The notes beneath the pieces are model-generated. The model did no database searches and had not been told where the DNA came from. It worked only from the letters and a program-made list of their open reading frames with translations. 64,000 nt of DNA from Sulfurimonas crateris (GTDB lineage Bacteria; Campylobacterota; Campylobacteria; Campylobacterales; Sulfurimonadaceae): contig NZ_SZPX01000001.1 of NCBI RefSeq assembly GCF_005217605.1, forward strand, positions 1 to 64,000, read 5' to 3'. This document shows positions 3,613-39,136 of the stretch, piece after piece (within the stretch, counting starts at the first letter, position 1; every line of letters starts with the position of its first letter). The position numbers and the translations under genes were made by a program.

Positions 3613-4764
3613 TTACTTACTAGATTCTACCATAAATTTAACAATGTCTTTAATCTGATCGTCACTAAGGTCCATAGCACCGCCCTTTGGAGGCATGCCA
3701 CCAATACCGTTTATAGAGTTATGGTTAACTCTATCTATGCCTTGCTCCATTACTGTAGCCCAAGCATTTTTGTCTCCCACTGCAGGTGCACCCATTGCAT
3801 CAGTTTTATGACAAACTGCACAAGATTTCTCATACAATTTCTCAGCCTCTGATACCGGTCCAGCATCTTCACTTACAGGAGGAAGATCTCTTTCTGTAGA
3901 GTACGGAGGAACTACAGCGGTAATCTCATTTGCAATTCTTGCTACAGACTCTTTACCACAGTTAGTCATACAGCGAGTTCCAACTGCACCGAAGTTTTTA
4001 GGCTCAGCAAAAAACGCTCTAACATTTTCAACACCCTCTGGTCCGTCAATATTCGGATAGAAGCCGTCACGGTTTGGCATTACGATCTTTTTGAAGTTAT
4101 CTTGATTTAACTCTTCAATATCTTCACCATCAATTTGTACACCATTCTCATAAAGAAGGTAAGCCGTCATAGCATACATCTCATCAGGTGTATAGCTTTT
4201 TGGGTTTGCGTATGGCATAGCATCACGGATATACCAGATAAGTGTACTAGCTTGCGGCCAGTAAGAACCGATAGTTCTGTTTGGAGCATCTTTGCCTGGA
4301 CAAGTTCTCTGATTTGCTAGTGAGTCCATTGAACCACCCGTAAGTGTTGGGTACCCTTTTCCGCCTGCACCAAACTCACCGTGACATACTGCACAGTCTC
4401 TATCATAAAGAACTTCACCCTCTTCAACAGTACCGCTACCTTCCGGTAAACCTGTACCGTCCGGCATAATATCCGCATCCCAAGCCTTTAGCTCATTTGG
4501 AGTCGGAGCTCTACCGAAGTTAACGCCTGTTGTCGGCTGCTCATTAACGGCATATGCAGTATACATGCCATTTTCTCTCTTATATGTAACACCGCCGTCC
4601 AAAGCATCTTTAGTCGGGTTGTACATACCGTTTGCAGCAGACTCTACTTTTGCAGATGATGCACCAGCAGAGCTGCTTGAAGCGAAACAGCCTGTGAAGA
4701 ACAGCGCACTACTAGCAACTACGGAAACACCAAGAATAATTAGTTTACTATTTAATTTTATCAT
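3613..4764 (-). CDS. soxD: SoxD, dihaem c-type cytochrome subunit of sulfur dehydrogenase
   Basis: Two haem-binding CAVCH motifs sit in the mature protein, one in the middle (DRDCAVCHGEFG) and one near the C-terminus (EKSCAVCHKTDA), separated by a SoxD-like region with GTRCMTNCG. SoxD takes electrons from the SoxC molybdenum centre. I prefer the ATG at 4764 because AGGGAG lies 9 bases upstream; an open frame from 4827 would overlap soxC. With that start the signal sequence ends in LFFTGC, a lipobox, so this SoxD is predicted to be a membrane-anchored lipoprotein rather than the soluble protein known from Paracoccus. Confidence 0.88.
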   Translation of the reverse strand: MIKLNSKLIILGVSVVASSALFFTGCFASSSSAGASSAKVESAANGMYNPTKDALDGGVTYKRENGMYTAYAVNEQPTTGVNFGRAPTPNELKAWDADIMPDGTGLPEGSGTVEEGEVLYDRDCAVCHGEFGAGGKGYPTLTGGSMDSLANQRTCPGKDAPNRTIGSYWPQASTLIWYIRDAMPYANPKSYTPDEMYAMTAYLLYENGVQIDGEDIEELNQDNFKKIVMPNRDGFYPNIDGPEGVENVRAFFAEPKNFGAVGTRCMTNCGKESVARIANEITAVVPPYSTERDLPPVSEDAGPVSEAEKLYEKSCAVCHKTDAMGAPAVGDKNAWATVMEQGIDRVNHNSINGIGGMPPKGGAMDLSDDQIKDIVKFMVESSK

Positions 4765-4777
4765 TTTCTTCATCTCC

Positions 4778-6115
4778 CTAACTTGGACAGTTGTCTGTTC
4801 TAACTTGAACATTATGAACTGAACCATCTTGTCTTACTTCCCAAGTACAAATTGAGTTTCTATGATAAACACCCTCTACACCAATGATCTCTTTCTCTTG
4901 AGTAACAGACGGCTGAACGAATCCTGCATCATCTATAGCACGAGATTGAATCAGTAGAGGTTTACCCTCATATCTGTACATATATGAGAATCTTGTCCAT
5001 GACTTAGGAAGAACGAGTCCTTTAAGACTTGCTTCAACATAGTTGTCTCCGCCATCAAATGATATATCTACAGCCGTAATAGTTCCGTGACCACTCCACG
5101 CAATACCTTCAACCTCTACCAAGTCGCCTTTTTTAAGGTCAGACCATGGTTTTTCAGGACAAGGGTTTGTGATAATTGAGTTAACTTCTAACGGGTAGAA
5201 GTGTTGGATAGCTTTACCGCTAGCAGTAAGAACCGTATATTTAGAAGTCTCTTCTTTACAGTACCATGGCTCTGCACCGAACTCTAAACGCTTAAGCCAC
5301 TTAACACATAGGTTTGCTTCCCAGCCCGGTAACATCAAACGAACGGGATACCCTTGCTCAGGTCTGATTGCCTCACCATTTTGAGCCCAAACAATCATTG
5401 CATCATCTAAAACTTTTTCAACAGGAACCGTTCTGCTCATCTCTGAACCGTCAGACCCTTCAGCCAACATCCATTTTGCAGTCGGTTTTAGACCGATTTC
5501 ATCAAGGATAGTTTTTAGACGAACACCTGTCCACTCTGCATTACTCATCATACCTTTTACGAATTGTAAAGAGTTGAATTGAGGACCTTTCCACTCAGCA
5601 GCACCATTTGCAGGACACTCCATGAAAAGAATTCTGCTCTCAGACGGATATTTTTTTAACTCATCTAAAGTCAAAACAATCGGTCTCTCAACAAGACCGT
5701 GAATCATCAGTCTGAACTTATTTGGATCAACATGTGCAACACCGTTGTGCGTTCTAGTGAAGTGCAATCCGTTTGGCGTAATAATACCTTCTAGCTCATG
5801 TAGCGGCGTCATTGAAACAGCAGCATGCATGTCTCCAGCAGATGAAAGAAGACTTGATGTTCTTCTTACAACATTGTGCTCATACTTTGACGGTATACCA
5901 TATGGATACTTATTAAGCTCATCACCTAAACTTGTTCCCCACTCCACATGGTGAATAATATTTTCATCGTCAGCTGACAGCTTAGCAGGTGCTAAGATAC
6001 TTGTAGCAGCGATAGCACTTACAGAATAAGCAGCAGTTCTTTTGAAGAAATCTCTTCTACTCGATTGCTCTACATTTGTAGTAGTTTCTAAGTTATTTTC
6101 AGAAATTTTACTCAT
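4778..6115 (-). CDS. soxC: SoxC, molybdopterin subunit of sulfur dehydrogenase
   Basis: A 445-residue protein of the sulfite oxidase family. A Tat signal SRRDFFKR (residues 19-26) exports it folded. The Moco-ligand cysteine is Cys167 in FMECPANG. It is followed by the dimerisation domain from about residue 320 (GIAWSGHGTITAVDISFDGG). SoxCD removes six electrons from SoxY-bound sulfane sulfur. The start has a strong AGGAGG 9 bases upstream. The gene heads the soxCDYZ run, and a tandem repeat lies in its promoter region. Confidence 0.95.
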   Translation of the reverse strand: MSKISENNLETTTNVEQSSRRDFFKRTAAYSVSAIAATSILAPAKLSADDENIIHHVEWGTSLGDELNKYPYGIPSKYEHNVVRRTSSLLSSAGDMHAAVSMTPLHELEGIITPNGLHFTRTHNGVAHVDPNKFRLMIHGLVERPIVLTLDELKKYPSESRILFMECPANGAAEWKGPQFNSLQFVKGMMSNAEWTGVRLKTILDEIGLKPTAKWMLAEGSDGSEMSRTVPVEKVLDDAMIVWAQNGEAIRPEQGYPVRLMLPGWEANLCVKWLKRLEFGAEPWYCKEETSKYTVLTASGKAIQHFYPLEVNSIITNPCPEKPWSDLKKGDLVEVEGIAWSGHGTITAVDISFDGGDNYVEASLKGLVLPKSWTRFSYMYRYEGKPLLIQSRAIDDAGFVQPSVTQEKEIIGVEGVYHRNSICTWEVRQDGSVHNVQVRTDNCPS

Positions 6116-11706: not shown

Positions 11707-12810
11707 TTGAAACTAGCCACTCTTTTTTTTACATTGACGCTCTTTTTTCAAAATGCATATGCTTCTGAGATGCCTCAAGATGAGCTGCTTAAAAAGATGA
11801 TAGGCAGAATGCTTATCGTCGGTTTTGAGAGCCAGAGCATTACTAAAGACTCCAAAATTGTAAAAGATATGCAAAAATATCACCTCGGCGGTGTCATTCT
11901 ATTTGACCGCCACTTCAACGACAGAACAAAAACAAAAAACATCAGCTCGCCTAAACAGCTAAAAACTCTTACCTCATCACTCAACTCATTTGCCAAAAAA
12001 CCGCTTCTTATCTCGGTAGATCAAGAGGGAGGAAAGGTCGCAAGACTAAAGCCTGCTTATGGTTTTGAAGCCACACCCTCGGCTAAAGTAGTCTCGGAGA
12101 TGGATGCCTACATGACAAAACGTGTCTATGACAATCTTGCAAAAACACTCCAAAACGCAGGCATAAACTGTAACTTTGCACCCGTTGTCGATCTGGCCGT
12201 AAATCCTCAAAACAGAGTTATATCAGGGCTTAAGCGCTCCTACTCAAGCGAGCCAAAAGAGGTCGCAAAGTACGCAAAGATATTTATGGATTCACTTCAA
12301 GAGAGAAATATTATCTCTGTTTTAAAACATTTTCCGGGTCACGGTTCCTCACTTGAAGATTCCCACAACGGATTTGTAGATATAAGCGAAACATGGGGCG
12401 AGACCGAGCTGGAGCCATACATAGAGCTTATCCACTCAGGCGGCGTCTCTATGATAATGACGGCTCACGTCTTTAACAGATATCTTGATGAGCTCTATCC
12501 AGCAACTCTATCATACAGAGTAAACACGGAGCTGCTTAGAGAGAAACTGGGCTATGATGGAGTGATTGTGAGTGATGATTTACAGATGGGAGCTATCGCT
12601 AAACACTACACTCTTGAAGAAATAGTGACACTCTCTATAAACTCTGGAGTGGATATGCTGCTCTTTGGCAATCAGCTCGCCAAGCAGGATACCCGTGAAC
12701 TTGTAGAGACGATTATGGCACAAGTAAAAAACGGTTCTATATCTATGGATAGAATTGTAGAATCAAACTCAAGAGTAGAACAGTTGTTCACCAAGATACA
12801 AATAAAATAA
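11707..12810 (+). CDS. nagZ: Secreted NagZ-type beta-N-acetylglucosaminidase (GH3)
   Basis: A glycoside hydrolase family 3 enzyme of about 367 residues. KHFPGHGSSLEDSHNGF holds the NagZ His-Asp dyad loop, and VIVSDDLQMGAI contains the catalytic Asp. The enzyme removes GlcNAc from GlcNAc-anhydroMurNAc units. Unlike cytoplasmic E. coli NagZ it starts with a clear Sec signal (ATLFFTLTLFFQNAYA), so it should act in the periplasm. AAAGG sits 8 bases before a TTG at 11707, which gives the cleanest signal peptide; a GTG at 11698 is in frame. The stop overlaps the symporter start (TAATG). Confidence 0.88.
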   Translation: MKLATLFFTLTLFFQNAYASEMPQDELLKKMIGRMLIVGFESQSITKDSKIVKDMQKYHLGGVILFDRHFNDRTKTKNISSPKQLKTLTSSLNSFAKKPLLISVDQEGGKVARLKPAYGFEATPSAKVVSEMDAYMTKRVYDNLAKTLQNAGINCNFAPVVDLAVNPQNRVISGLKRSYSSEPKEVAKYAKIFMDSLQERNIISVLKHFPGHGSSLEDSHNGFVDISETWGETELEPYIELIHSGGVSMIMTAHVFNRYLDELYPATLSYRVNTELLREKLGYDGVIVSDDLQMGAIAKHYTLEEIVTLSINSGVDMLLFGNQLAKQDTRELVETIMAQVKNGSISMDRIVESNSRVEQLFTKIQIK

Positions 12811-14282
12811 TGCAAGGTGCTTTTTCAACTCTAGACTGGATCGTATTTGCCTCCTACTTTATACTGCTTGCTATTACCTCTATTGTTTTAAGCCGCACCA
12901 AGATAAACTCTTCACGAGACTATTTTTTATCTCCGCATGCGATGCCTATGTTTGCCGTTGCTATATCTGTTTTGGCAACATCACAATCAGCCGCTACTTT
13001 TTTGGGTGCTCCAGAATACTCTTATACAAAGGACTTTACCTTTATAGGGTTCTACTTCTCCGCACTTTTAGCCGTTATCTTCGTAGCGTATGTTCTCATT
13101 CCAAAATATTACGAGATGAAGGCAGTTACCGTTTATGAGCTCCTGGAGTCCAGATACGGAGAGAGCGCAAAAAAGCAGGCGGGGGTTATGTTTCTTATAG
13201 GAAGAGTCCTTGCCAGCGGAGCAAGACTCTACATTGGAGCACTGGCAATATCGATGATAATATTTAGCGATATTATCTTCTTGCATGTTGCGCTCTCTAT
13301 ATTGATCCTAATGCTTGGAGCCCTTGCATACACTTATTTCGGCGGTGTGCGCTCCGTCATACTGAGCGATGTTATTCAGGCGGTTACATACATAGGAGCG
13401 GGGGTCGCTGTTCTTATATATCTCTACTACTCGCTTGAGCATATCGAGATCATAAAAACTCTTAGCGAAAATAACAAACTAAACTTCATCGACAGTTCAT
13501 TTGATGGCAACTTTAGCATTATAGGGCTTCTTAGCGGCTGGCTTCTGTTAAACATTGCGGCATTCGGGCTTGATCAGGATATGACTCAAAGGGTACTTGC
13601 CTGCAAAGATAAAAATGAGGCTGCAAAATCGCTTATTATCTCCATTTTACTGACCATTCCCGTTGTACTCCTCTTTTTGGCAATAGGAGCGCTTCTGTAC
13701 CTTTTTTATATGCAAGGCGGCGTAGATCAGAGTTTTGAGGGTGAGAAGATCACTATTTTTATGTACTACATACTAAATGAGATGCCTGATGGACTTAGAG
13801 GCTTGGTCACGGTGGGAGCTATTGCGGCGGCACTCTCAAGTACCAACTCCGTTCTTGGCGCTATGGCTTCTATTGCGGTTGAGGACATCTACAAGCCTTG
13901 GAGATTAAAACAGAGCCAAATAGAGGAGCAGCACTTTGTAAAAGCCTCACGATTTGCGGTGCTCATCTTCGCAGTAGTTCTCTCCCTTATGGCAATGGTA
14001 AGCTACTTCTGGCAGCGCTACAGCGACCTATCGCTTATCAGTTTTGCGCTTGGTGTTATGGCATTTGCATATACGGGGCTTTTGGGTGTATACTTCTCGG
14101 CAATATTTACGTCGCGCGGAAACAAGAGTAGTGTTTTATGGGGGCTTATTGGCGGATTTGCAACCGTTTTAGCACTTCAGCCATATAGCTTTGGCATAGA
14201 GCTTGCCTTCTCGTGGCAGATAGTAATCGGTACCGCTGTAGCATTTTTTATTGTTCAGCTAGGAGGAGCAAAAAATGAGTGA
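12810..14282 (+). CDS. Sodium:solute symporter (SSS) family transporter in a cell-wall salvage operon
   Basis: A 490-residue membrane protein with about 13 hydrophobic segments and SSS hallmarks: SVLATSQSAATFLGAPEYSY near residue 54, AYTYFGGVRSVILSDVIQA near 170 and GAIAAALSSTNSVLGAMASI near 342. The start overlaps the nagZ stop by one base and the end overlaps anmK by 8 bases. That places it in an operon otherwise devoted to peptidoglycan salvage. Import of MurNAc or anhydroMurNAc is inferred from context; the substrate cannot be read from the sequence. Confidence 0.85.
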   Translation: MQGAFSTLDWIVFASYFILLAITSIVLSRTKINSSRDYFLSPHAMPMFAVAISVLATSQSAATFLGAPEYSYTKDFTFIGFYFSALLAVIFVAYVLIPKYYEMKAVTVYELLESRYGESAKKQAGVMFLIGRVLASGARLYIGALAISMIIFSDIIFLHVALSILILMLGALAYTYFGGVRSVILSDVIQAVTYIGAGVAVLIYLYYSLEHIEIIKTLSENNKLNFIDSSFDGNFSIIGLLSGWLLLNIAAFGLDQDMTQRVLACKDKNEAAKSLIISILLTIPVVLLFLAIGALLYLFYMQGGVDQSFEGEKITIFMYYILNEMPDGLRGLVTVGAIAAALSSTNSVLGAMASIAVEDIYKPWRLKQSQIEEQHFVKASRFAVLIFAVVLSLMAMVSYFWQRYSDLSLISFALGVMAFAYTGLLGVYFSAIFTSRGNKSSVLWGLIGGFATVLALQPYSFGIELAFSWQIVIGTAVAFFIVQLGGAKNE

Positions 14283-15381
14283 GTATTATATAGGCGTAAT
14301 GTCGGGAACCAGCCTTGACGGGATCGATATAGCATACTGCCAGATCAAAGAGCACAGCTTTGAGCTGCTGCACTCAGATGCCTACCCCTTTGACAAAGAG
14401 ATAAAAGAGGAGATATTAAAAGCTATAAACACTCCAATGACACTAAAGAGGATTGGCGAGCTTGACACCCGCTTGGGGGAGATGTACGCAAATACGATAG
14501 AGCGTTTTATATCTCAAAAGAGGATAGATAAAAAGCAGATAACCGCTATAGGTCTTCACGGTCAGACGTTGTGGCATGAGCCGAACAGCGCAAACCCTTT
14601 CTCCATGCAGCTTGGCAATCCAAATGTTATAACGGCACTAACAGGCGTTAGCGTTGTTAGCGATTTCAGAAGAAAAGATATTGCTCTTGGCGGTCAGGGC
14701 GCTCCCTTTGCTCCAGCTTTTCACCAATACCTCTTCTCAAGGCTAAAAGCCAAGATAGCCGTTGTAAACATAGGCGGAATGGCGAATCTATCTATCTTGG
14801 GAGAGAGGCTTAGAGGGTATGATACTGGGTGCGGAAATGTTCTCATGGACTACTGGATCTCACTCAACAGGGGAGAGACCTACGATAAAGACGGAGAGTG
14901 GGCAAGATCTGGAACTTTTGACAGAGACCTCTTGGAGCAGATGCTAAAAGAGCCATATTTTTCAAAAGCTATTCCAAAGAGTACCGGACGTGAACTCTTT
15001 AACGCAGATTGGCTTGAGAGAGAGCTGAGAAAATTCTCCCCAAAAAAGAGCGGTGCACTGAGCATAAAAAAAGAGGATGTGCAGGCAACGCTTTTAGAGC
15101 TCAGCGTTGTAACCATTGCAAATGAGGTCAAAAAGAGCGGTGCAGATATGCTGATAGTTTGCGGTGGCGGCGTTAAGAACAGCTACCTTATGCAGAGATT
15201 AGGAGATAAGCTAAAAGGGACTGAGGTAGTTCCAAGCGATGAATGCGGCGTAAGCAGTGAGTTCATGGAATCTATGGCGTTTGCGTGGCTTGCCCATGAG
15301 AGAGTGCACAGAAAATGTGTCAAACTATCCTCCATAACAGGAGCGTCAAAAGATTCTATATTAGGTGCTATTTATGAGTAA
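14275..15381 (+). CDS. anmK: Anhydro-N-acetylmuramic acid kinase
   Basis: A 368-residue ASKHA-fold kinase with the AnmK signature MSGTSLDGIDIAY at residues 9-21, GLHGQTLWHEP near 96, the phosphate loop NIGGMANLS near 165 and CGGGVKNSYLM near 298. It opens the 1,6-anhydro ring and phosphorylates the product to MurNAc-6-P. A strong AGGAGG precedes the start. Overlaps on both sides show translational coupling within the salvage operon. Confidence 0.95.
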   Translation: MSEYYIGVMSGTSLDGIDIAYCQIKEHSFELLHSDAYPFDKEIKEEILKAINTPMTLKRIGELDTRLGEMYANTIERFISQKRIDKKQITAIGLHGQTLWHEPNSANPFSMQLGNPNVITALTGVSVVSDFRRKDIALGGQGAPFAPAFHQYLFSRLKAKIAVVNIGGMANLSILGERLRGYDTGCGNVLMDYWISLNRGETYDKDGEWARSGTFDRDLLEQMLKEPYFSKAIPKSTGRELFNADWLERELRKFSPKKSGALSIKKEDVQATLLELSVVTIANEVKKSGADMLIVCGGGVKNSYLMQRLGDKLKGTEVVPSDECGVSSEFMESMAFAWLAHERVHRKCVKLSSITGASKDSILGAIYE

Positions 15382-16312
15382 AACCCAAACTTGGTTAAAA
15401 ACAACCTCTTTTAAAAACTATATCATTGAGTCTGCTCTTGCAGATGCAAGTTTTAGAAAATATTACAGGCTGCGTGACGGCAGTAAAACAGCACTTTTAA
15501 TGGACTCATCTCTTGAAAAAGCCTCACTAAATGCTTTTATGGATATAACATCAAGACTTCAAAGCGTGGATGTAGGTGTGCCTAAAATATTTGAACACAA
15601 CCCAGATGAGGGCTTTTTGATACTAGAGGACTTCGGAACTTCTCACTATCTGGATATTTTAAATCAGAACAACTTTAAAGCATACTATACAAAGGCGATG
15701 AACACTATCTTAAAGATGCAAAAAGCCGATGCTGCAGGACTTCCGCTATACGACAAAGAGTTTTTGCATGCGGAGATGGATCTGATGCAGGAGTGGTACA
15801 TAGAAAAACATCTTAATCTAAAGCCGAGCGATGCACAGGCAAAGCTTATAGCAGATACTCTTGAGGCGATCTCGTGCGTTGTCTTGGAACAGCCGCAAGA
15901 TACATTTGTACATCGTGATTTTCACTCAAGAAACATAATGTTAAAAGAGAACAACAAACTCGGAATTATCGACTATCAGGATGCAATGTGCGGAGCTGTC
16001 ACCTATGATCTGGTCTCACTGCTAAAAGATTGCTACGTCGCCTACGACAGAAGAAATATAAAAGAGCTGGCTCTTGAATTTCGCGACAAAAAGGGGCTCA
16101 AAGTAGACAATGAGACCTTTATAAAATGGTTTGACTTTATGGGACTTCAAAGACACATAAAAGTGCTTGGGATCTTCTCCCGACTTCATATCAGAGATAA
16201 AAAGAGTGGCTATCTAAAGGATATACCTCTGACTCTTAAGTATATTATAGATACGGCCGGCAGATACAACGAGACAAAAGAGTTCGCCGCTTTTTTAGGA
16301 AATATAAAATGA
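15374..16312 (+). CDS. amgK: Anomeric MurNAc/GlcNAc kinase AmgK
   Basis: A 312-residue aminoglycoside phosphotransferase-like kinase. The catalytic loop is FVHRDFHSRNIML, followed by the metal-binding LGIIDYQDAMCG. AmgK phosphorylates MurNAc at C1 in the Pseudomonas-type recycling route that bypasses de novo UDP-MurNAc synthesis. The ATG at 15374 overlaps the anmK stop. The neighbour is murU, the next enzyme of the same route, which makes AmgK far more likely than another phosphotransferase. Confidence 0.88.
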   Translation: MSKTQTWLKTTSFKNYIIESALADASFRKYYRLRDGSKTALLMDSSLEKASLNAFMDITSRLQSVDVGVPKIFEHNPDEGFLILEDFGTSHYLDILNQNNFKAYYTKAMNTILKMQKADAAGLPLYDKEFLHAEMDLMQEWYIEKHLNLKPSDAQAKLIADTLEAISCVVLEQPQDTFVHRDFHSRNIMLKENNKLGIIDYQDAMCGAVTYDLVSLLKDCYVAYDRRNIKELALEFRDKKGLKVDNETFIKWFDFMGLQRHIKVLGIFSRLHIRDKKSGYLKDIPLTLKYIIDTAGRYNETKEFAAFLGNIK

Positions 16313-16971
16313 ATGCAATGATCCTGGCTGCAGGCCGCGGAGAGAGGATGCGCCCGCTTAGCGACAAGACCCCAAAACCGCTCTTAAAAGTTCACGGTAA
16401 AAGCCTTATTGTCTGGCATATAGAGCGGCTTGCTTCACTAGGATTTAGCCAAATAGTCATAAATATAGATCACCTTGGAGATATGATAATAAAAAGCTTG
16501 GGGGATGGCTCAAAATGGGGAGTCAATCTGCTCTACTCGGACGAGAGACAAAGCGGAGCGTTAGAGAGCGGGGGCGGGATCATAAACGCGCTCCCTCTTT
16601 TGGATAGCGAGAAATTTTTGGTAGTAAACGGCGATATCTGGTGCGACTATGAGTTTGAAACCGGCTATGACTTAGGGGATGATCTGGCTCATCTTATCTT
16701 GGTTAAGAATCCAGGGCATAATCCGAGCGGAGACTTTGCTCTGCACAAGAACAGAGTCAGCAACGACACAAAAGGAAGATATACATTCTCAGGCATTGGA
16801 TACTACTCTGCTAAACTTTTTGAGGGACTGGAGAACAAAAAAATGCCTCTTGCTCCAATTCTTAGAGAAACAGCAGAGAATGGCAGAGTAAGCGGCTCGC
16901 TCTACGACGGAAAATGGTACGATATAGGCACGCCTGAAAGATTAAAAGAGATAAACGCTGCTTCTTTATAG
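16309..16971 (+). CDS. murU: MurNAc-1-phosphate uridylyltransferase MurU
   Basis: A 220-residue sugar nucleotidyltransferase with the signature MILAAGRGERMRPLSDKTPK at residues 4-23, VNGDIWCD in the middle and the metal-binding KWYDIGTPERL near the C-terminus. It converts MurNAc-1-P to UDP-MurNAc. Overlap with amgK by four bases supports the specific MurU assignment over other short nucleotidyltransferases. Confidence 0.88.
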   Translation: MNAMILAAGRGERMRPLSDKTPKPLLKVHGKSLIVWHIERLASLGFSQIVINIDHLGDMIIKSLGDGSKWGVNLLYSDERQSGALESGGGIINALPLLDSEKFLVVNGDIWCDYEFETGYDLGDDLAHLILVKNPGHNPSGDFALHKNRVSNDTKGRYTFSGIGYYSAKLFEGLENKKMPLAPILRETAENGRVSGSLYDGKWYDIGTPERLKEINAASL

Positions 16972-17029
16972 TTAGCCCTATTTGGTATAAGATGTTATAC
17001 TTGGGGCAAAAATTATAGAAGAGTTAATT

Positions 17030-18004
17030 ATGAAAAATCTACTGCTTGCCCTTTTACTGAGCGTGCCCCTTTTTGCAAAGTATGACAACTGCGAATTTAA
17101 AAACAAAGATTATATAGATATATGCAATAAAGTAGTAAAGAATGGCGTCTCACATGAATATGCAAACAAGTTTTTGCTCTCCTATTTTAAAACAAAAAAG
17201 TTTGATGAAGTCAGCTATAAATATCTGCAGCCCAAATATATTAAAACCCATAAAAAAAATGAGAAAAAAGCAAATAACGTACTTGTAAAATATGTACCGG
17301 ACATGGTTGCACATCTTAAAAAGTATGCCGAAGTTTATGATTTTGCAGAGAAAAAATATGGCGTAAACCGTGAGATAATCGCCGCTATTTTGATAAAAGA
17401 GACAAAGCTCGGAAAGATAAAACCGACCCATGACGCATTTATAGTCTTTAACACTCTGGTGGTTAGAACAGAGCCAAACAGCCCCAGAGAAAAGTGGCTT
17501 TTAAATATGGGAAAAACAAATATGGCTTCTATAATCACCCACTGCTACAAAAAAGGGGTGACCCCCGAAGAGTGCAATCTACCAAGCTCCTACGCGGGGG
17601 CGGTCGGCATACCTCAATTTATGCCAAACAGTTTTGTCTATGCCGAGGGGTATAAAACAGAGATTGCAGATTTAACAAAAATGGAGGATGCTATTGTTTC
17701 TGCCAGCAAATTTTTACATAAAAAGGCTGATTTTTCTGAGCTTCTTGATTGGAGTAAAATACCCGATATCGTAAGCATTGAGTCCAAGTGGTACGACTAT
17801 GAGTTTAAAAATGATAACGCTTCACTTGTCTATGAGAAAAACTCAAAATCTGACAAAACTTACGACTGTTTCGCATGTGACAAACAAGAGCTTCAATATC
17901 TAAGAGAGTATGCCAAAAAGATAATGCGCTACAACAACTCTTCAAATTACGCCATCGGCGTAATGCGTCTGGCGTATGATGCACACATAATGCTTGAGAA
18001 GTAA
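17030..18004 (+). CDS. MltB-type membrane-bound/periplasmic lytic transglycosylase
   Basis: A 324-residue protein with a signal peptide (LLLALLLSVPLFA). It has a lysozyme-like domain in which KETKLG (about residue 124) carries the catalytic Glu and SYAGAVGIPQFMPNSF (about 187-202) is the MltB-family GxxQFMPxS motif. It cuts glycan strands and releases anhydro-muropeptides, the substrates of the upstream salvage enzymes. The leader peptide shows no lipobox, so a soluble periplasmic form is likely. An inverted repeat GTATAA/TTATAC (about 16985-17000) lies upstream of the start. Confidence 0.88.
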   Translation: MKNLLLALLLSVPLFAKYDNCEFKNKDYIDICNKVVKNGVSHEYANKFLLSYFKTKKFDEVSYKYLQPKYIKTHKKNEKKANNVLVKYVPDMVAHLKKYAEVYDFAEKKYGVNREIIAAILIKETKLGKIKPTHDAFIVFNTLVVRTEPNSPREKWLLNMGKTNMASIITHCYKKGVTPEECNLPSSYAGAVGIPQFMPNSFVYAEGYKTEIADLTKMEDAIVSASKFLHKKADFSELLDWSKIPDIVSIESKWYDYEFKNDNASLVYEKNSKSDKTYDCFACDKQELQYLREYAKKIMRYNNSSNYAIGVMRLAYDAHIMLEK

Positions 18005-18011: not shown

Positions 18012-18341
18012 CTACTTTTTTCTCGCGTCTTTAAAGTAGAGCACACACCAGCCATCTGGACTTATGGAACCCTCGACTATTTTACACTCGTTTGTTTCTG
18101 GCAAAAAATGGAGGCAGTCTATACATTTTTTTCCATCTTTTGGACTATCCTGATACATAGTCTTCTCTTTTGTACCTTTTGCCAAAAGCGGTGTAACACC
18201 CCATGTAGGTAGGAATTTATGAGAAATTACATTTAGTTCATAAATGTTACTCTCACAGCTATACTCTATTCTTTTTCTCTTAATTTGCCCTAAACAATAA
18301 AATCTACTTCTCTCTCAAACTTTACTTTATTAAAAAATTAC
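18012..18341 (-). pseudogene. High-potential iron-sulfur protein (HiPIP)-like remnant
   Basis: The minus strand encodes MYQDSPKDGKKCIDCLHF (ATG at 18158) and then about 30 residues with NECKIVEG and PDGWC, ending at TAG 18012-18014. Four cysteines in CxxC-x9-C-x12-C order, with the YQDxPKDGKxC and WC motifs, match small HiPIP-type electron carriers. Upstream, in frame, FLPTWGVTPLLAKGTKEK looks like the end of an export signal. Before that there is no ATG, GTG or TTG start and no twin-arginine motif until a stop near 18342. The N-terminus therefore seems decayed. Use of a non-standard start or a sequencing error cannot be excluded. Confidence 0.6.
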
Positions 18342-19166
18342 AGTTTTAAGAGTATGTGACTTTTGTGGTTTTACAACTCTCGCATCATCAAAAGCGTTTG
18401 CTGATTCGATGCAGAGCATATGCTCGTAGGCATCTTTATTCATAGCGCTCATTCTAGAAGTTTTCTCTATCCACGGGTTCCATACAACGACAGAAGATGA
18501 GTTCTCGTTTCTAACATGTAGCGTTCTATTTTTATCATACAGAGTTATCTCCCTATCTACCTCTTGGTAAACTCTGTCAACCTCTTGATTAAAGGTTATA
18601 TCGCCCTCTTGCACCTCATCTTTCCATGTCAGCGCATCAAGATATGGCTTTTTATCGAGCCCTTTTATAACGGCATCTGAAATATGAGAGAGTGAGAAAT
18701 ATGTGTGAAGAGCCTGCGTTATACTAAAAGGATTGCAATCAAGATTTGTGGTTTTAAGCTCCATCGTTAACTTATCTGAAATAGTTACATGTAAATCCAG
18801 TTCAAACAAATAGGGCCACATCTTTAAGCTCTCTTGGCTGTGTGTAAGCCTTAAAATAACAGATGAACTCTTCTCATCTGCCTCACTGCAGCTCACACAG
18901 TCCCACATGGCCGTTCTTGCAAAACCGTGCTGAGGCAGAGCTTTGTCTTCACTGAAACCAAACCACGGCCAGCAGATTGGAACTCCACCACGGATAGCTT
19001 TGCCCGTCTCAAAATCACTTACTTCGCTAAGCCATAAAATCGGCTCCTCGCCGACTCTTGCATAGTGAAAAAGATGTGCGCCCTGAAGCGCTATTTTTGC
19101 CTCTGCGGCAGAGTTTTTTATCTCAATATATACAAAGCCGTTTGGCAGTTTTTTGTGAGTTATCAC
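18330..19166 (-). CDS. D-hexose-6-phosphate mutarotase (YeaD family)
   Basis: A 278-residue aldose 1-epimerase-like protein. The recognisable pieces are GAHLFHYARVGEEPILWLS near residue 30, RGGVPICWPWFG, the histidine in LPQHGFART and the glutamate-bearing CIESANA near 250. The family interconverts anomers of glucose-6-phosphate and similar sugars. It overlaps the transporter gene by four bases, so the two are translated together. Confidence 0.85.
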   Translation of the reverse strand: MITHKKLPNGFVYIEIKNSAAEAKIALQGAHLFHYARVGEEPILWLSEVSDFETGKAIRGGVPICWPWFGFSEDKALPQHGFARTAMWDCVSCSEADEKSSSVILRLTHSQESLKMWPYLFELDLHVTISDKLTMELKTTNLDCNPFSITQALHTYFSLSHISDAVIKGLDKKPYLDALTWKDEVQEGDITFNQEVDRVYQEVDREITLYDKNRTLHVRNENSSSVVVWNPWIEKTSRMSAMNKDAYEHMLCIESANAFDDARVVKPQKSHTLKTVIF

Positions 19167-20446
19167 AACTCATCCCAAGACTTTATCTTATGCCATCTAA
19201 GAGCGTAAAGGAGTATAAAGAGATAACAGATTATCCCCATAAGGTATGTTGACTGCATATCTCCGCTGACGTAAGATATCTTGCCAAATATAAGCGGAAG
19301 GATCGCACCGCCCGCTATTGCCATTATCAAAAGCGCGCTTCCTTGCGCCGTATATTTTCCCAACCCTTCAAGTGCCAACGGCCAGATCGTCGGCCATACA
19401 AGAGCATTTGCAAACCCTAAGAATGCTACAAAAGTCACGGTATTTGGAAGAGTTCTAATGCCGCTCCATCCCCATAAAATTTCTGAAATTCCATGACTTT
19501 GAGATGAAGAGACTACTCCGAACAAAAACAGTATTCCCAAAAGTGCGGAGCCTATGAGCGCTCTCTCTTGCGAGATATATTTCGGTATAAGTGCGACACC
19601 GAGTGCGTATCCAAGTACCATAAAAAACATTACATAAGAGGTTAGGGAGGTAACATTTACTAAGCCTAAATGCTGTCCATAAAGACCGATAGTATCGCCT
19701 GCTATTACCTCTATGCCGACATAGAAAAAGAGCGCGGCTGCACCTAAGACCACGCGCGGAAATGCGAAGATACTCTTCTCCTCTGCCTCCGCATTTTTCT
19801 CGAACTCAAGCTCGGGAAGTTTAGAGAACTTTACAAGAGCAATCAGAGAGCTAAGCAACAGAGCCATAATAATGTAGGGAGCTATAAGTTTTGAAGCAAG
19901 TTCCTCTTTTGACTCTGCGGAGAGATCCTCCAACGAACCTATGCCTGAGAGTATAAATGCAGTAAAGAGAAGTGGTGCGATGACCCCTGCCCCCTTATTT
20001 ATAAGCCCCATAATGCTTATGCGTGTCGCCGCGCTCTCTATGGGTCCTATGCAGACTATGTAGGGGTTTGATGCGGTCTGCAAGATGGTAAGACCCGATC
20101 CAAGTGCAAAAAGAGCTATCAAGAAAAGTGTAAAACTCTCCCTCTGCGCTGCCGGTATAAAGAGAAGGCTTCCCAGTGCCATTATCGCCAGACCGAGTGC
20201 CATTGAATTTTTGTACCCTATCTTTTCAATCACGTAAGACATAGGCAGAGCCATTACCGTATAAGCGATATAAAAAACAAAGGTTACAAAGAGAGCTTCA
20301 AACTCGTTAAGATCGCATATTGCCTTCAAAAAGGGAATAAGCGACCCATTTAGCCATGTTACAAAACCGAAAATAAAAAAAAGCACCCCTATTATTGTCA
20401 TAGGAACTATGGTAGGAGTGTTTAATATTTTAAAGCGCTTAAACAT
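19163..20446 (-). CDS. FucP/GluP-type major facilitator sugar transporter
   Basis: About 427 residues and 12 hydrophobic segments. IIGVLFFIFGFVTWLNGSLI near the N-terminus and LQTASNPYIV are hallmarks of the sugar:proton symporters FucP and GluP. Likely substrates are glucose, galactose or fucose; context favours a hexose. I take the ATG at 20446 (MFKRFKIL), overlapping the HAD gene's stop by 8 bases, rather than 14 codons upstream. Sugar uptake is unexpected for an otherwise lithotrophic gene set. Confidence 0.8.
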   Translation of the reverse strand: MFKRFKILNTPTIVPMTIIGVLFFIFGFVTWLNGSLIPFLKAICDLNEFEALFVTFVFYIAYTVMALPMSYVIEKIGYKNSMALGLAIMALGSLLFIPAAQRESFTLFLIALFALGSGLTILQTASNPYIVCIGPIESAATRISIMGLINKGAGVIAPLLFTAFILSGIGSLEDLSAESKEELASKLIAPYIIMALLLSSLIALVKFSKLPELEFEKNAEAEEKSIFAFPRVVLGAAALFFYVGIEVIAGDTIGLYGQHLGLVNVTSLTSYVMFFMVLGYALGVALIPKYISQERALIGSALLGILFLFGVVSSSQSHGISEILWGWSGIRTLPNTVTFVAFLGFANALVWPTIWPLALEGLGKYTAQGSALLIMAIAGGAILPLIFGKISYVSGDMQSTYLMGIICYLFILLYALRWHKIKSWDEL

Positions 20447-21266
20447 TTTTGAGGCTCTTAAGATAGTTTGCAACGCCGTCTTCATCATTTGTGTGCGGCA
20501 GAACTATTTTCGCCGCTTTTTTTACGCCCTCTTGTGCGTTTGCAACGGCAATTGATGTTCCTGCCAACTCGAACATTCCAATATCATTGAAGTTGTCTCC
20601 AAAAACACTAAGCTTTTTAAGGTCAAAACCGATCGCTTCGCTCACACTTCTTATGCCGTGAGATTTGTCCGCATCTTTATGAAGCAGCGTCAAAAAGTAG
20701 CAGCCTGCATAGGCTTCTGGAGCCAAAATATACTTTATAGTATCCCCAAAAACAGCTCTTAGATGAGATGCCACTCTTCTTAAAAGCTCCTCTTCGCCAA
20801 AATAGACTATCTTAAAATTATCACTCATTGCGCGAAGGTTTTTCTCTTGATGATGGTAATCGTCTTTTTTGTAGTTTTTAAGTATCTTTGTTTGATACGC
20901 ATTTAAAACGGTAGAGAAAGAGAAGGCTTCACTAAGATTTTTATCCGCCAAAGAGAGAACAAAAGGGTAGATACCGAACTTTGCACCCTCATCTATGATG
21001 GCATCCCCTATCTCTTTGTTTATAAACTTCGTATCGATTATCTTTTTATCCATAGTAGCTATCAGTGCACCGTCAAGCAGTATCATCGGAGCGTTAACAT
21101 CTACATCTTTTAAGAACTGTGCCGTCTTTTTATATGTTCTGGCAGTTGCGATACTAAGGACAGAGTCGCTTGAAAAACTGTTCCATACCTCTTTTGTAAA
21201 GGGGCTTACAGATAGATCCGTCCGCAAAAAAGTGTGGTCCAAATCTGTAATATAAGCATTTTTCAT
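20439..21266 (-). CDS. HAD-superfamily (Cof-type) sugar phosphatase
   Basis: A 275-residue HAD hydrolase. Motif I is DLDHTFLRTD (residues 8-17), with the nucleophile Asp and acid/base Asp spelled D-x-D; motif IV is VFGDNFNDIGMF near residue 221. The C2-type cap is characteristic of Cof/YbiV phosphatases that act on sugar phosphates. It lies 5 bases downstream of the antiporter gene and overlaps the transporter gene, forming a small sugar-related operon. Confidence 0.8.
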   Translation of the reverse strand: MKNAYITDLDHTFLRTDLSVSPFTKEVWNSFSSDSVLSIATARTYKKTAQFLKDVDVNAPMILLDGALIATMDKKIIDTKFINKEIGDAIIDEGAKFGIYPFVLSLADKNLSEAFSFSTVLNAYQTKILKNYKKDDYHHQEKNLRAMSDNFKIVYFGEEELLRRVASHLRAVFGDTIKYILAPEAYAGCYFLTLLHKDADKSHGIRSVSEAIGFDLKKLSVFGDNFNDIGMFELAGTSIAVANAQEGVKKAAKIVLPHTNDEDGVANYLKSLKNV

Positions 21267-29062: not shown

Positions 29063-31195
29063 ATGCCTAAAATATACAAATGCCAAAGAGCAAAATCAGA
29101 TATTACCATCTTAAAAACACTTGATGATTCACTTATTGCCTATAGCACTAAGTTTCACGGAATTAAAATATTTGACTTTTATGAGTGTGAAATAAAAAAA
29201 AGTATTGCTAACGCTTATCTTAATTCAACCGTGAGTGCCTGCGCTTTTAGTCCAAACAACGAGTTTTTTGCTTTTGTGAACAATCGAACTATCTATATTT
29301 TAGAGATACAATCTAAAGAGATAATACACACTATTGAGACTCATGACGAAGATGTAGAGATTATAAGTTTTGACCCATCTTCAAGCTATATTATTGCCGG
29401 AAGCAAGAACGGCAGAGTTCTACAGTACAAAACAAACCAGACCTCACTTCTCTCTAGGCTTTGCTCTTTTCCGCACAACAGAAAGAACATAACAATAGAT
29501 AGAAAAAACTACGTAAGCTCGTTTGCATTTCACAACAACTCTTTTGCATGCAGCGGTTATGGAGGTGCCATCTATATAATCGACCTCTATACACAGACGA
29601 ACAGAAGCGTTATCACATACAATAAAACCCGCATCAACGCTCTTTGCTTCTTGGATGAAGATACGCTTGTATGCGCAAAAGATAACGGAAAAGTAGACAT
29701 TGTCTCACTCTTAGATGAAGAGAGCCACAAAAGCATAGATACGCCCATCTCATCAATTGAGACAATAATCATAATGCCAAATCCAAACTATATTTTAGTA
29801 AGCGGCAACTCAAATATAATTACGATAATTGATATAAAAAACTCCAAGATCGCGCATAGCAAATATATTGAAGTGGAATCTAAAATAAAGTTTGTAGATA
29901 TTGTAAACAGTGATTCGCTTGTTGTTGCACTTCAAAACAACGAGATATTGCATATTGAACTTCCGGGTATCACAAGATTAAAATCTCTAATTGCGCATAA
30001 TTCACTAAAAGAGGCTTTTGAACTAATAGCAAAAGAGCCAATGCTTCAAGGATCAAATGAGCACAGAGTGCTTGAAGAGAAGTTTGAAAAGAGTTATGAG
30101 ATCGCTCTAAAGGCACTTATCAACCAAAACAGAGCTCACGCTATGCAGATCCTAAAACCATACAAAGATATAAGATCAAAAGAGACTCTTATAAAAGAGC
30201 TCTTTAGCGCTTTTGAAAACTACCTTAGATTTCAAGCGCTATTTTTAGAAAAAAAGTATGCTCTGGCATATAGTATGTGCTCAAAATATGAACCTCTTAA
30301 GAGAACTGTACAGTATAAAAAGATGGAGCAGATCTTCAGACTCGCCTTCTCAAACGCACAAAGACATATAGTACAAAACAATATAGCCGGTGCCAGAGCA
30401 CTTCTTACAGAGTACAACACCGTGATCTCAAAAAAGCCTCTTATAAAGCTTCTTATCACTCAAAACAAAGAGTTTGTAGACCTGCTAAGAGCCATACAAA
30501 AGAGAGATTTTCAAACCATCAACAAGCTTGTAGACAAAAATGAGCTATTTAAGCAGATACCTAACTACATAGCCATGAATAACCAGATAGAAGAGACCCT
30601 CTTAGAGATAGAAGAGAATATAAAAGCAGCTCAGACTGGAAAAGCAGAGACTCTTTTGCTTACGCTTGAGAAGATTCCTCATGTAAGAAAAAGACGAGAA
30701 GAGCTGCAGCTAAAGTGCAAATATGCCGTCTTGCTTCAAAATGCGTATGAAGAGAACGACTTTAAGAGCTGCTACGAACTTTTAGATATCTATAAATTTC
30801 TGCGAAGCACAGAGCTTGGAATGCTTCTTGAGAAACACTGGTCAAAACTTATGCAAAAATGCGAAGAGTACGCACTAGATGGAAATATAAAAGATATTAA
30901 AAAAGAGTTAGGTCAGCTTCTTGGTTTACCTAGTAGAAGCAACAAGATCGGGGATCTGCTAAGAGTAAGTTTTCACACAAGGATAGGCATACTGATGCAG
31001 AAAAACAATTTTAAAGGTGCAGAAGCTATCATCTATACCTATATAGATATATTCGGTGTAGACAGCGAGATCAGCCATCTTATGAAAAAGTTTGAAAAAA
31101 TATCGTCTTGTAAACTTGCCATAACGCAGACTAATGAAGAGAGACCCACAAGAGACAGTTGGAGATACAACGATATTATAATGAAGGGGCTGTAA
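29063..31195 (+). CDS. Beta-propeller plus alpha-helical-repeat protein of unknown function
   Basis: A 710-residue protein without signal peptide or membrane segments. Residues about 1-300 form WD40-like repeats, each with the pattern of hydrophobic strands around short phrases such as VSACAFSPNNEFFAF, VEIISFDPSSSYIIAGSKNG and INALCFLDEDTLVCAKDNG. From about 310 to 680 the sequence turns strongly helical, with repeated units that resemble an alpha-solenoid (LKEAFELIAKEPML, YALAYSMCSKYEPLK, GAEAIIYTYIDIFG). I recognise no enzyme motif. A cytoplasmic scaffold role fits the architecture but is inference. Its 3' end overlaps the convergent fliI gene by 20 bases. Confidence 0.7.
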   Translation: MPKIYKCQRAKSDITILKTLDDSLIAYSTKFHGIKIFDFYECEIKKSIANAYLNSTVSACAFSPNNEFFAFVNNRTIYILEIQSKEIIHTIETHDEDVEIISFDPSSSYIIAGSKNGRVLQYKTNQTSLLSRLCSFPHNRKNITIDRKNYVSSFAFHNNSFACSGYGGAIYIIDLYTQTNRSVITYNKTRINALCFLDEDTLVCAKDNGKVDIVSLLDEESHKSIDTPISSIETIIIMPNPNYILVSGNSNIITIIDIKNSKIAHSKYIEVESKIKFVDIVNSDSLVVALQNNEILHIELPGITRLKSLIAHNSLKEAFELIAKEPMLQGSNEHRVLEEKFEKSYEIALKALINQNRAHAMQILKPYKDIRSKETLIKELFSAFENYLRFQALFLEKKYALAYSMCSKYEPLKRTVQYKKMEQIFRLAFSNAQRHIVQNNIAGARALLTEYNTVISKKPLIKLLITQNKEFVDLLRAIQKRDFQTINKLVDKNELFKQIPNYIAMNNQIEETLLEIEENIKAAQTGKAETLLLTLEKIPHVRKRREELQLKCKYAVLLQNAYEENDFKSCYELLDIYKFLRSTELGMLLEKHWSKLMQKCEEYALDGNIKDIKKELGQLLGLPSRSNKIGDLLRVSFHTRIGILMQKNNFKGAEAIIYTYIDIFGVDSEISHLMKKFEKISSCKLAITQTNEERPTRDSWRYNDIIMKGL

Positions 31196-36200: not shown

Positions 36201-36577
36201 AACTTCAAAGAGTCGATATACGAACTTACGTCAAAAATAAAATTACACAACATCATCAAATGGATATATTTAATAATGATTTAGTTGAAATATTTGTTGA
36301 AAAGTCAAAAATATTAGAATCAAAAGCTATCGGCTTACTAAAGGGCTTTACTGAAAGTAAAGGAGGTAGATCAAATTTAAGGCATCCTAAATATCCACTT
36401 TTAAAAGAAAAACAGCCTTTTGTATTTCAAAATGAATTTTCCATAGGCTCTACGTGTGGAATCAAAAAATACAAAACAGATGCCACAGGAAAAGTTTTGG
36501 GATTTTACTATTTAGGCAAAGTTTTAAATAACGAAAAAGAACTTTTTGCCAAAGTACTGAGCTATAAGGCTTTGTGA
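33230..36577 (+). CDS. cas9: CRISPR-associated endonuclease Cas9, type II-C
   Basis: A 1115-residue Cas9 in the II-C size range. RuvC-I is ILSLDLGVTSCGYS with catalytic Asp7. An Arg/Lys-rich bridge helix follows (about 48-70). RuvC-II is KLESTREL with Glu526. HNH is EIEHIVPRACGG with His611 and Asn634 in DENAKKGN. RuvC-III is FHHAEDAILLG with His750 and Asp754. The remainder is the PAM-interacting domain. At the HNH position normally held by Asp the residue is Glu610. AAAGG precedes the start and the stop overlaps cas1. No csn2 or cas4 is present, so the locus is type II-C. Guided by a crRNA/tracrRNA duplex, it cuts invading DNA. Confidence 0.96.
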   Translation: MKILSLDLGVTSCGYSVMQELESNSYSLLDYGVVMRDNPYDGGTQQERREKKQSRNLLDKKKKRIKDIKQLFTYYNLIYQEKNKYDIWKLRAIDTFERKLDNDELFAIFRFMAKHRGYKSLKIEDLIAEIEAKEKIGDCQSDEIQEPKDLEKFSETLAYLDALKCKNKEKTAVQIIWELESQKESPTFRNHGNYRYMIRREDIEKEIKIIIEAQQKFNFFDEKQKADEFTKKLQNIILPQEAVTLNPDNINNCLIYKDKKCAPTFSYSFDIFNLYKLIADLKIDGINAYDEQKEELLSTILNDIKKFTSKTSYSVKDFKKILGIDNEHVKINNFQDYKTIKGKKEQNSLIKFNFLPSFKKLNHEILNTILKEENFVEILDEIATELHLNINPQMLIEEIEKVLKKHNLDFTKDEIRDFTLELHKHKSKGTSNYSLKALKDLTALMKDGKNESSAKEILGVSKSESYSHFLKGIKYLKPQNKEGQLQYEIDENRISNHIVKSLVSWALRVITDLHDKYGPFDIIKLESTRELSQPDDVKRDIKSANDKNEKEWQNLITKYTKHFEAKGLNPKNNKEYLIKLKLWEQQNELGIYSHKVLGIDEILSDKTEIEHIVPRACGGSNAEYNKAIDLKDENAKKGNKLPLDYLSGEKREIYINFVEELKKSYKINMKKKINLLAESLDKTFKEVKDDVSLHATSYTEKLLGEILKRYYPFTDKLKENQRVMSISGRATSYLRRILSIDNKSRDTNFHHAEDAILLGVMSKTYLQNISTNFEKNYELTEQNAKENFKKIIPLIEGASPNQIFAHIRESYMENIEESPFYKALDGTLKTPTFWVSKKPIGTKAHNETIQSKKNLAYYVPVTSLLDKVKPSHKMSSDEFYQKFNKEIYEKIQVVQDNPNDYTAIAFAKKRDTVVNILNLSAFSSTKDEKTELDKKLRDVMSEPLYDVNSNEIRRVKRVGEDASIEVRGGLAYTAPSLVSLRCGFTGEKKLKLQRVDIRTYVKNKITQHHQMDIFNNDLVEIFVEKSKILESKAIGLLKGFTESKGGRSNLRHPKYPLLKEKQPFVFQNEFSIGSTCGIKKYKTDATGKVLGFYYLGKVLNNEKELFAKVLSYKAL

Positions 36578-37819: not shown

Positions 37820-37897
37820 AACATTCAAAATCTATCATCGATTTAAATCGAATCAATTATTTTAAGTCCCGCTACACAAACCCCTTTGTGCTAAAAC
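37785..37897 (-). ncRNA. tracrRNA
   Basis: On the minus strand the RNA starts at about 37897 with GTTTTAGCACAAAGGGGTTTG, 20 of 21 bases identical to the start of the plus-strand repeat, and continues to ACTTAAAAT at 37859. This 39-base anti-repeat can pair along most of a minus-strand crRNA repeat, with a bulge in the middle as in other type II systems. Behind it come a self-complementary TCGATTTAAATCGA (37838-37851), the stem TTTTGAA/TTCAAAA (37814-37830), and a hairpin (37797-37818) followed five bases later by seven Ts (37785-37791). Length about 113 nt. The exact 3' end is inferred. Confidence 0.78.
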
Positions 37898-37903
37898 GTA
37901 GAT

Positions 37904-37933: not shown

Positions 37934-37990
37934 ATTTTCATATACAAAACCTTCTCTTTTGCCATGCTATACAGGGCTGCATAAAACCCT

Positions 37991-39083: not shown

Positions 39084-39136
39084 AGTTTCTCTATGACTCT
39101 GTAACTGACAGATGTTTTAGTAAAATAAAAACTCTC

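Follow-up and report, generated by a model that had tools for sequence, protein, structure and literature searches.

The window analysed here is the whole stretch from position 1 to 64,000 of contig NZ_SZPX01000001.1 of Sulfurimonas crateris (GCF_005217605.1), whose genome comprises 2.2 Mb in 11 contigs and is 100% complete. Six genes in the order nagZ-sss-anmK-amgK-murU-mltB, all on the + strand, occupy positions 11707 to 18004. This operon probably recycles the muramic acid of the cell wall by a route that begins outside the cytoplasm, with an amidase, Na+ symport of anhydro-N-acetylmuramic acid (anhydroMurNAc) and the successive action of AnmK, a phosphatase, AmgK and MurU. Its genes, for which N-acetylmuramic acid and N-acetylglucosamine are abbreviated to MurNAc and GlcNAc, are as follows.

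11707..12810, + strand: nagZ, predicted exported GH3 beta-N-acetylglucosaminidase (PF00933, 5e-66; a GTG start at 11698 is also possible)
12810..14282, + strand: SSS-family sodium:solute symporter, proposed Na+/anhydroMurNAc symporter (PF00474, 8.6e-32)
14275..15381, + strand: anmK, predicted anhydro-N-acetylmuramic acid kinase (PF03702, 1.4e-135; NF007139, 470 bits, cut-off 367)
15365..16312, + strand: amgK-like gene, putative anomeric MurNAc/GlcNAc kinase of the APH fold (NF045759, 234.9 bits, cut-off 550)
16309..16971, + strand: murU, predicted MurNAc-1-phosphate uridylyltransferase (NF045761, 291 bits, cut-off 250)
17030..18004, + strand: mltB-like gene, predicted lytic transglycosylase with a hydrophobic N-terminus (PF13406 (SLT_2), 1.1e-31; TIGR02282 MltB, 4.8e-20, under cut-off)

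The assignments to the GH3, SSF, AnmK, MurU and SLT_2 families are firm. When nagZ was read from the TTG at 11707, it overlapped the symporter gene by 1 nucleotide (nt), and the following overlaps were 8 nt (sss/anmK), 17 nt (anmK/amgK) and 4 nt (amgK/murU); murU was separated from mltB by a 58-nt spacer. This start is plausible because the sequence AAAAGG is located 8 nt before it; the first start given by the open reading frame (ORF) caller was the GTG at 11698. The gene upstream is pyrE, which lies 34 nt from the TTG start. An earlier note on this DNA had described overlapping nagZ, symporter, anmK, amgK and murU genes followed by an MltB-type gene, and this was borne out by the coordinates and by Pfam and NCBIfam. 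No RNA families at the gathering cut-off and no tRNAs were found in the 64-kb window.

The operon was compared with 60 related genomes, 37 of the genus (including that of the window) and 23 of other families. The symporter was matched in 29 of the 37 genus genomes, two of which had only fragments at contig edges. Additionally, a wider scan of named genomes was carried out with a symporter alignment, and the best 80 of 370 loci were taken; therefore, divergent members were under-sampled. These 80 loci were titled mostly Sulfurimonas, 11 were titled Sulfurovum, and the rest were less closely named Campylobacterota; by class, 65 were of the Sulfurimonas type and 15 (11 so titled) of the Sulfurovum type. 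The partner genes AnmK, AmgK, MurU and MltB were present in 68, 60, 51 and 38 of the 80 loci, respectively, many loci being cut by contig ends. The gene order was repeated across the genus, some of the loci having inserts or contig ends, and because of this recurrence the order is taken to reflect more than chance. The genes inserted between the symporter gene and anmK in some relatives were mostly unrelated by eye (DNA methyltransferases, a nuclease and regulators). A recurrent insert at this place was a VanY-type carboxypeptidase (L125:9542-10285, Pfam 1.7e-9), found in four loci (L034, L125, L126 and L133), of which L034 and L133 seemingly belong to one genome.

The earlier note had assigned a signal peptide to NagZ, and the N-terminus was indeed signal-like by eye, so that the protein did not show the lack of a signal peptide expected of a cytoplasmic NagZ. 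The nearest solved structures were 6k5j (4.6e-46) and the lipoprotein YbbD/NagZ 3bmx (1.7e-45). Matches to 4gvf, 1tr9 and 5g1m, cytoplasmic NagZ proteins of Gram-negative bacteria, were at about 1e-25. The KHxPGHG..DSH (Asp-His) motif and the nucleophile motif were each found in 58 of the 58 relatives scored, and a narrower nucleophile pattern for NagZ in 36 of the 58, the motif counts excluding L144 (masked bases) and sequences of fewer than 300 residues.

Signal-like N-termini were called by eye and by an N-terminal hydrophobicity score only. By eye, 24 of the 26 NagZ proteins from genus loci were signal-like. The hydrophobicity score was at least 2.13 in 67 of the 69 NagZ and amidase proteins scored, a set without three fusions interrupted by contig ends; the two failures were L144, with a masked stretch, and L170, at a contig edge. 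Among the controls, which were scored on the first 34 residues whereas NagZ was scored on 40 residues around the domain start, a value of at least 2.1 was reached by AnmK in 1/69, AmgK in 0/59, MurU in 1/51, Frr in 0/16, PyrE in 0/17 and HAD_IIB in 2/15 cases, and a value of at least 1.6 by AnmK in 7/69 and MurU in 3/51. Sulfurovum-type genomes had a GH3 match in 14 of 15 cases, and all 13 complete N-termini were signal-like (scores 1.90-3.01). Lipobox-like N-termini were seen by eye in NagZ of L206, L209, L213 and L214, all of the Sulfurovum type, which suggests membrane-anchored forms.

According to the earlier note, no ampD was present in the operon. This was correct for the operon itself, but the genome encodes an AmpD-family amidase elsewhere, in a gene of its own, whose product has a signal-like N-terminus. 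It was the one Amidase_2 protein found in the source genome, as the operon's NagZ was the one GH3 protein; a second protein of either family was not found there. In 17 of the 29 symporter-positive genus genomes, a GH3-Amidase_2 fusion was located directly upstream of the symporter gene, with the amidase as the C-terminal part of the fused NagZ. Sixteen of these fusions formed open frames 553-574 residues long, and that of G013 was split by contig ends; the order GH3 then Amidase_2 was confirmed with Pfam in two of them, titled S. indica and S. crateris. The remaining 12 genomes, including that of the window, had a stand-alone amidase gene, whose product was signal-like by eye in all 12 cases.

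A similar picture was obtained in the wider scan. Among the 65 Sulfurimonas-type loci there were 33 fusions, 28 with NagZ alone, one with adjacent NagZ and amidase genes and three with neither; of these three, two begin at or near the symporter gene at a contig edge, and the third is L177. Among the 15 Sulfurovum-type loci, an exported amidase was encoded upstream of the symporter in 10 (adjacent in nine, one gene away in one), and neither gene was found in five. When symporter-positive and symporter-negative genus genomes were compared, the amidase was present in 29/29 versus 0/8, NagZ in 28/29 versus 1/8 and AnmK in 26/29 versus 0/8; these counts are raw, uncorrected for phylogeny, and five of the eight symporter-negative genomes are under 90% complete, both of which detract from the argument.

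Across 20 sequences, five of which were domains trimmed from fusions, residues H60, H169, D194, E130 and K192 of the amidase were invariant; they presumably correspond to the zinc ligands and catalytic pair of AmpD. The VIA-align run covered the amidase only. The AmpD equivalog NF008758 gave 32.8 bits, below its cut-off of 143. The model structure of the amidase matched endolysin amidase 6ssc (Z 16.1), AmpD 2y2b (14.3) and AmiD (about 12), and peptidoglycan recognition proteins (PGRPs) also matched. Because endolysins, PGRPs, AmpD and AmiD match alike, a preference for anhydro-muropeptides could not be told from the fold. In a tree of NagZ, the fused label required four changes and 12 forks were unresolved, and the tree was not used as evidence; the fusion may have arisen once or several times, a single origin being possible.

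Further forms of these genes were seen. In L192 (L192:5400-6086), NagZ and the amidase are encoded by adjoining separate genes 5' of the symporter gene; a signal-like stretch lies in frame upstream of this amidase ORF, but without a standard start codon. G039, of another family, had an Amidase_2 domain within a 604-residue open frame and no GH3 match in its genome. Many Sulfurimonas loci with a fused nagZ had a short ORF immediately 5' of it (L176:5779-6318 and similar), which looked nucleosidase-like by eye and had no Pfam match at 1e-5.

The nearest solved relative of the symporter was the sialic acid symporter SiaT (5nv9, 1.6e-45), and the predicted model (pLDDT, a predicted local confidence score, 74.8) was aligned by Foldseek with 5nva at template modelling (TM) scores of 0.85/0.88, in a LeuT-type fold. 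TIGR00813 gave 167.7 bits, under its cut-off of 184. The roles of SiaT residues were taken from PMC5931594. In a HMMER alignment, the Na2 residues A56, S342 and S343 of SiaT corresponded to A56, S343 and S344, invariant in 13 sequences. At the Na3 site, D182 and S346 corresponded to the invariant D187 and S347, and S345 to N346. The carboxylate-binding S60 and T63 of SiaT were also conserved. Retention of the Na2 and carboxylate-binding residues makes it plausible that the symporter is coupled to sodium and that its substrate is an acidic sugar. The terms 'muram', 'MurNAc', 'peptidoglycan' and 'Tannerella' are all absent from a review of prokaryotic SSS transporters published in 2021 (PMC7918813).

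The nearest solved relative of AnmK was 3cqy (9.6e-91). The AmgK model NF045759 spanned residues 6-311 of 315 in the next protein, whose nearest solved relative was 3csv (7.2e-28); this was the best-scoring model yet stayed under its cut-off, and the protein is therefore called AmgK-like. AmpG (TIGR00901) was found in 0 of the 60 related genomes, while the controls were matched in 5/14 and over cut-off in two. MurQ (TIGR00274) was over cut-off in 0/60 genomes and in 5/14 controls, and Mpl (TIGR01081) in 0/60 and 1/14, respectively. Matches to MurQ below the cut-off (58/60) were read as other SIS-domain proteins, GlmS- or GmhA-like by match length and place, and those to Mpl (58/60) as MurC and other Mur ligases. 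At these thresholds, the genome search proposed in the earlier note thus turned up neither ampG nor murQ. AmpG together with a cytoplasmic NagZ, the pairing that the note regarded as incompatible with its scheme, did not occur in the source genome, nor did anything there point to a symporter substrate unrelated to amino sugars, which the note had likewise named as a refutation.

These results can be arranged in the following route. The lytic transglycosylase, the proposed source of anhydro-muropeptides, would free GlcNAc-anhMurNAc-peptides in the periplasm, where the exported NagZ would take off GlcNAc and the exported AmpD-family amidase the stem peptide, leaving anhydroMurNAc. The SSS symporter would bring in anhydroMurNAc, and perhaps MurNAc too, with Na+. 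In the cytoplasm, AnmK would form MurNAc-6-phosphate (MurNAc-6-P), a phosphatase would convert it to MurNAc, AmgK would produce MurNAc-1-phosphate, and MurU would yield UDP-MurNAc. The stem peptide would not be religated by the known route, because no Mpl was found over the cut-off. The enzyme activities in this organism are predicted from known activities of the families, the order of outside and inside steps from the signal peptides and the NagZ-amidase fusion, and the transported substrate from gene context. The scheme of the earlier note, consisting of periplasmic cleavage, sodium-driven sugar uptake and conversion to UDP-MurNAc by AnmK, AmgK and MurU, fits most of the comparative evidence. 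The fuller version, in which Sulfurimonas and its relatives possess a complete outside-first route with a secreted NagZ-amidase (or its separate parts), a symporter in place of AmpG and a Cof-type phosphatase in place of MupP, is favoured with a confidence slightly above even.

The phosphatase step was considered separately. The earlier note had expected MupP to be encoded elsewhere in the genome. The MupP model (NF009696, cut-off 359) gave at best 91.8 bits among the five PF13419 (HAD_2) matches of the source genome, HAD (haloacid dehalogenase) groups beyond HAD_2 not all having been scanned. A candidate from another HAD group is encoded in an operon near the recycling genes.

18330..19166, - strand: aldose-1-epimerase-family protein of the NagP/HAD operon (PF01263, 1.9e-45)
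19163..20488, - strand: NagP-like transporter of the major facilitator superfamily (MFS) (NF046060 NagP, 505 bits, cut-off of 625 not reached; TIGR01272 gluP, 235.5 over 202.55)
20439..21266, - strand: Cof-type HAD-IIB phosphatase, candidate MurNAc-6-phosphate phosphatase (PF08282, 7.4e-44; nearest solved YidA 1rkq)

A strong match to the Cof-type HAD was found in 28/29 symporter-positive versus 2/8 symporter-negative genus genomes; the two HAD-bearing symporter-negative genomes are 78-79% complete, the HAD-less symporter-positive genome is 68% complete, and the match of G010 is in two pieces. In four Sulfurovum-type loci, a Cof-type HAD was encoded at most 1.7 kb from murU. The count of such a gene in the vicinity, 15/28, is biased upward, because loci were retained either for having 3.5 kb of space or for a HAD gene already seen in them. 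A HAD of 40-45% identity was also present, without the recycling system, in 5 of the 23 other-family genomes, indicating that the Cof-type HAD has other uses too. Perhaps, then, it acts as the MurNAc-6-P phosphatase; it is regarded as a candidate and not as a finding. The NagP-like protein of the same operon may take up the GlcNAc freed by the exported NagZ.

A separate question, compatible with the proposed route, is whether a HAD-IA protein encoded in the genome, instead of the Cof-type HAD, is the missing phosphatase; this is considered doubtful. Pseudomonas MupP belongs to the HAD_2 group of phosphatases (PMC5371407), the 91.8 bits were scored by a protein of the source genome, L099, and a close match to L099 was found in 27/29 symporter-positive genomes. 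However, 91.8 bits is far below 359, phosphoglycolate phosphatase models scored higher, and the close match was missing in symporter-positive G004 and G017 and present in 5/8 symporter-negative genomes. Matches of the L098 type occurred in 60/60 genomes. As stand-ins for MupP, L098 and L099 were not favoured, since they showed little co-variation with the symporter.

Several further observations weigh against the proposed route. The AmgK-like protein stays well under its NCBIfam cut-off (234.9 versus 550). SiaT residues Q82 and R135 are replaced by F81 and A135 in the symporter, so that a SiaT-type substrate site was not found; R132 and R139, on the same helix as the R135 position, are invariant. 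In L185, L190 and L200, of the Sulfurovum type, the locus contained the symporter gene but no partner gene; AmgK and MurU were missing from the full-length loci L137 and L140. Where NagZ and amidase were absent, the neighbour of the symporter was an OprD-like 485-residue ORF in L194 and a 484-residue ORF for an Na/alanine symporter in L191; the neighbours in L185 and L190 resemble that of L194 by eye. Moreover, a NamZ exo-muramidase (NamZ_N 8e-81, NamZ_C 5.6e-34) was encoded directly 5' of the symporter gene in L177 (L177:2-3129), at the usual place of NagZ and amidase. NamZ exo-muramidase releases MurNAc, and this neighbour therefore points to MurNAc rather than anhydroMurNAc as the substrate in L177.

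The NamZ gene bears on the idea that the symporter serves mainly for free MurNAc, the cell's own or scavenged from other bacteria. This idea also agrees with MurNAc being the substrate of AmgK and with Tannerella MurT, reported to be a MurNAc transporter of the sodium-symporter type that is encoded in a salvage operon (PMC5790795, PMC7670621). It is nevertheless judged distinctly unlikely: NamZ was beside the symporter in only 1 of 107 loci searched, AnmK, which acts on the anhydro-sugar, was present in 68 of the 80 loci and tracked the symporter across the genus, and no AnmK is predicted in T. forsythia (PMC7670621).

The chief argument against one scheme for all is the NagZ of G002 and G014 (L056 and L055), which lacks a signal peptide and starts at the catalytic domain, with no in-frame start upstream. 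These two genomes are divergent members of the genus; the symporter is kept, and their amidases retain a signal-like N-terminus. Such an arrangement would be expected if, after removal of the peptide outside by the amidase, the disaccharide GlcNAc-anhMurNAc were carried in by the symporter, alone or besides the monosaccharide, and export of NagZ were variable. It also agrees with this alternative that the amidase, not NagZ, is encoded next to the symporter in 10/15 Sulfurovum-type loci. Considering that NagZ was signal-like in nearly all genus loci and in every complete Sulfurovum-type protein, and that in the fusion NagZ shares the amidase's location outside the membrane, import of the disaccharide is considered unlikely.

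Exported NagZ was not confined to genomes with the symporter. A signal-like NagZ without a symporter or AnmK match was found in G036 of the genus and in G041, G042, G044, G055 and G057 of other families, and every NagZ retrieved from symporter-less genomes had a signal-like N-terminus; G055 encodes two GH3 proteins, one of them 60% identical to the window NagZ. Therefore, export of NagZ alone does not imply salvage; it predates this system or extends beyond it. The G036 genome (L118; 96% complete) has an mltB-like gene directly 3' of nagZ and gave no match to the symporter, the amidase or AnmK. It looks as though the genes for uptake and phosphorylation were gained and lost together, as one unit flanked by two wall hydrolase genes.

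Such genomes would also suit a reading in which NagZ and the amidase are ordinary periplasmic wall hydrolases, a Yej/Opp-type ATP-binding cassette (ABC) carrier imports the fragments, and the SSS protein carries another solute. Agrobacterium replaces AmpG by an ABC transporter (PMC9790009), and one or more peptide-type binding proteins are encoded in the source genome (SBP_bac_5, L098:3-1490). Work on imported fragments would have to be completed inside the cell, yet the genome yielded only a single GH3 and a single Amidase_2 protein and no Mpl over the cut-off, and the symporter co-occurs with the amidase in 29/29 versus 0/8 genomes. This reading is considered very improbable, and symport of anhydroMurNAc after cleavage outside remains preferred.

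Other features of the window were noted. A type II CRISPR locus (33230-39084) encodes a Cas9-like protein (HNH and RuvC), Cas1 (36574-37500) and Cas2 (37472-37819), and its repeat array has a 66-nt period with 16 registered copies. At 3613-6115 on the - strand, a gene for a molybdopterin oxidoreductase with a dimerisation domain adjoins one for a cytochrome c protein, resembling a sulfite dehydrogenase pair. A WD40-repeat protein of 710 residues is encoded at 29063-31195.

If the proposed route is true, it would be a further Gram-negative way to recover wall turnover products, beside AmpG and YejBEF-YepA; there would be no uptake of the anhydromuropeptides by which beta-lactamase induction is signalled in other bacteria, and the stem peptide would either be lost or be reused on its own. 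The analysis gives an orphan SSS subfamily a testable substrate, and it offers a naturally occurring NagZ-amidase enzyme of two domains, together with a candidate for the missing phosphatase, while G002 and G014 represent a natural variant for probing disaccharide transport. In the open part of PubMed Central, no paper containing both 'Sulfurimonas' and 'peptidoglycan recycling' was found, and none of the matches listed there described a secreted NagZ-amidase with SSS uptake and AnmK/AmgK/MurU in a Gram-negative bacterium. The parts are known already; their combination in a Gram-negative bacterium is new among those matches.

In usual Gram-negative recycling, import comes first and disassembly follows (PMC9790009), an order that is seemingly reversed here. 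The cytoplasmic part resembles the anabolic recycling of the Pseudomonas type (AmpG, NagZ, AmpD, AnmK, MupP, AmgK, MurU) in that AnmK, an AmgK-like protein and MurU would lead to UDP-MurNAc and no MurQ was found over the cut-off. It differs in that no AmpG was found, neither MupP nor Mpl was over the cut-off, NagZ and the amidase are signal-like, and uptake by an SSS protein is proposed. Extracellular action of AmiE and then NagZ is known from Bacillus subtilis, where the genes cluster with those for MurP and MurQ (murQRP-amiE-nagZ; PMC5061867); the proposed use of an amidase and NagZ in sequence outside the cell is similar. That bacterium, unlike Sulfurimonas, is Gram-positive and has a phosphotransferase system (PTS)-type MurP and MurQ; its two hydrolases are encoded in separate genes, in contrast to the fusion, and the AnmK model had no match in the B. 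subtilis control genome. In mycobacteria, the NagZ protein LpqI is a lipoprotein (PMC6572805).

As for the transporter, MurT of T. forsythia imports MurNAc and is assigned to the sodium symporter superfamily in the introduction and to the MFS in the discussion of PMC5790795. It may be likened to the symporter, by description and not by sequence, as a muramic-sugar carrier of the sodium symporter superfamily encoded in a salvage operon. In contrast to the present system, Tannerella takes up free MurNAc for a MurK/MurQ route, and AmpG is also present and no AnmK predicted (PMC7670621). The SSS fold, the Na2 site and the Ser60/Thr63 pair that binds the substrate carboxylate are shared with SiaT, whereas the R135 and Q82 positions are not conserved and the gene context here is that of peptidoglycan. 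Finally, YejBEF-YepA of Agrobacterium is likewise a non-AmpG importer in a Gram-negative bacterium without AmpG (PMC9790009); unlike the proposed symporter, it is an ABC transporter for whole muropeptides, which are processed inside the cell.

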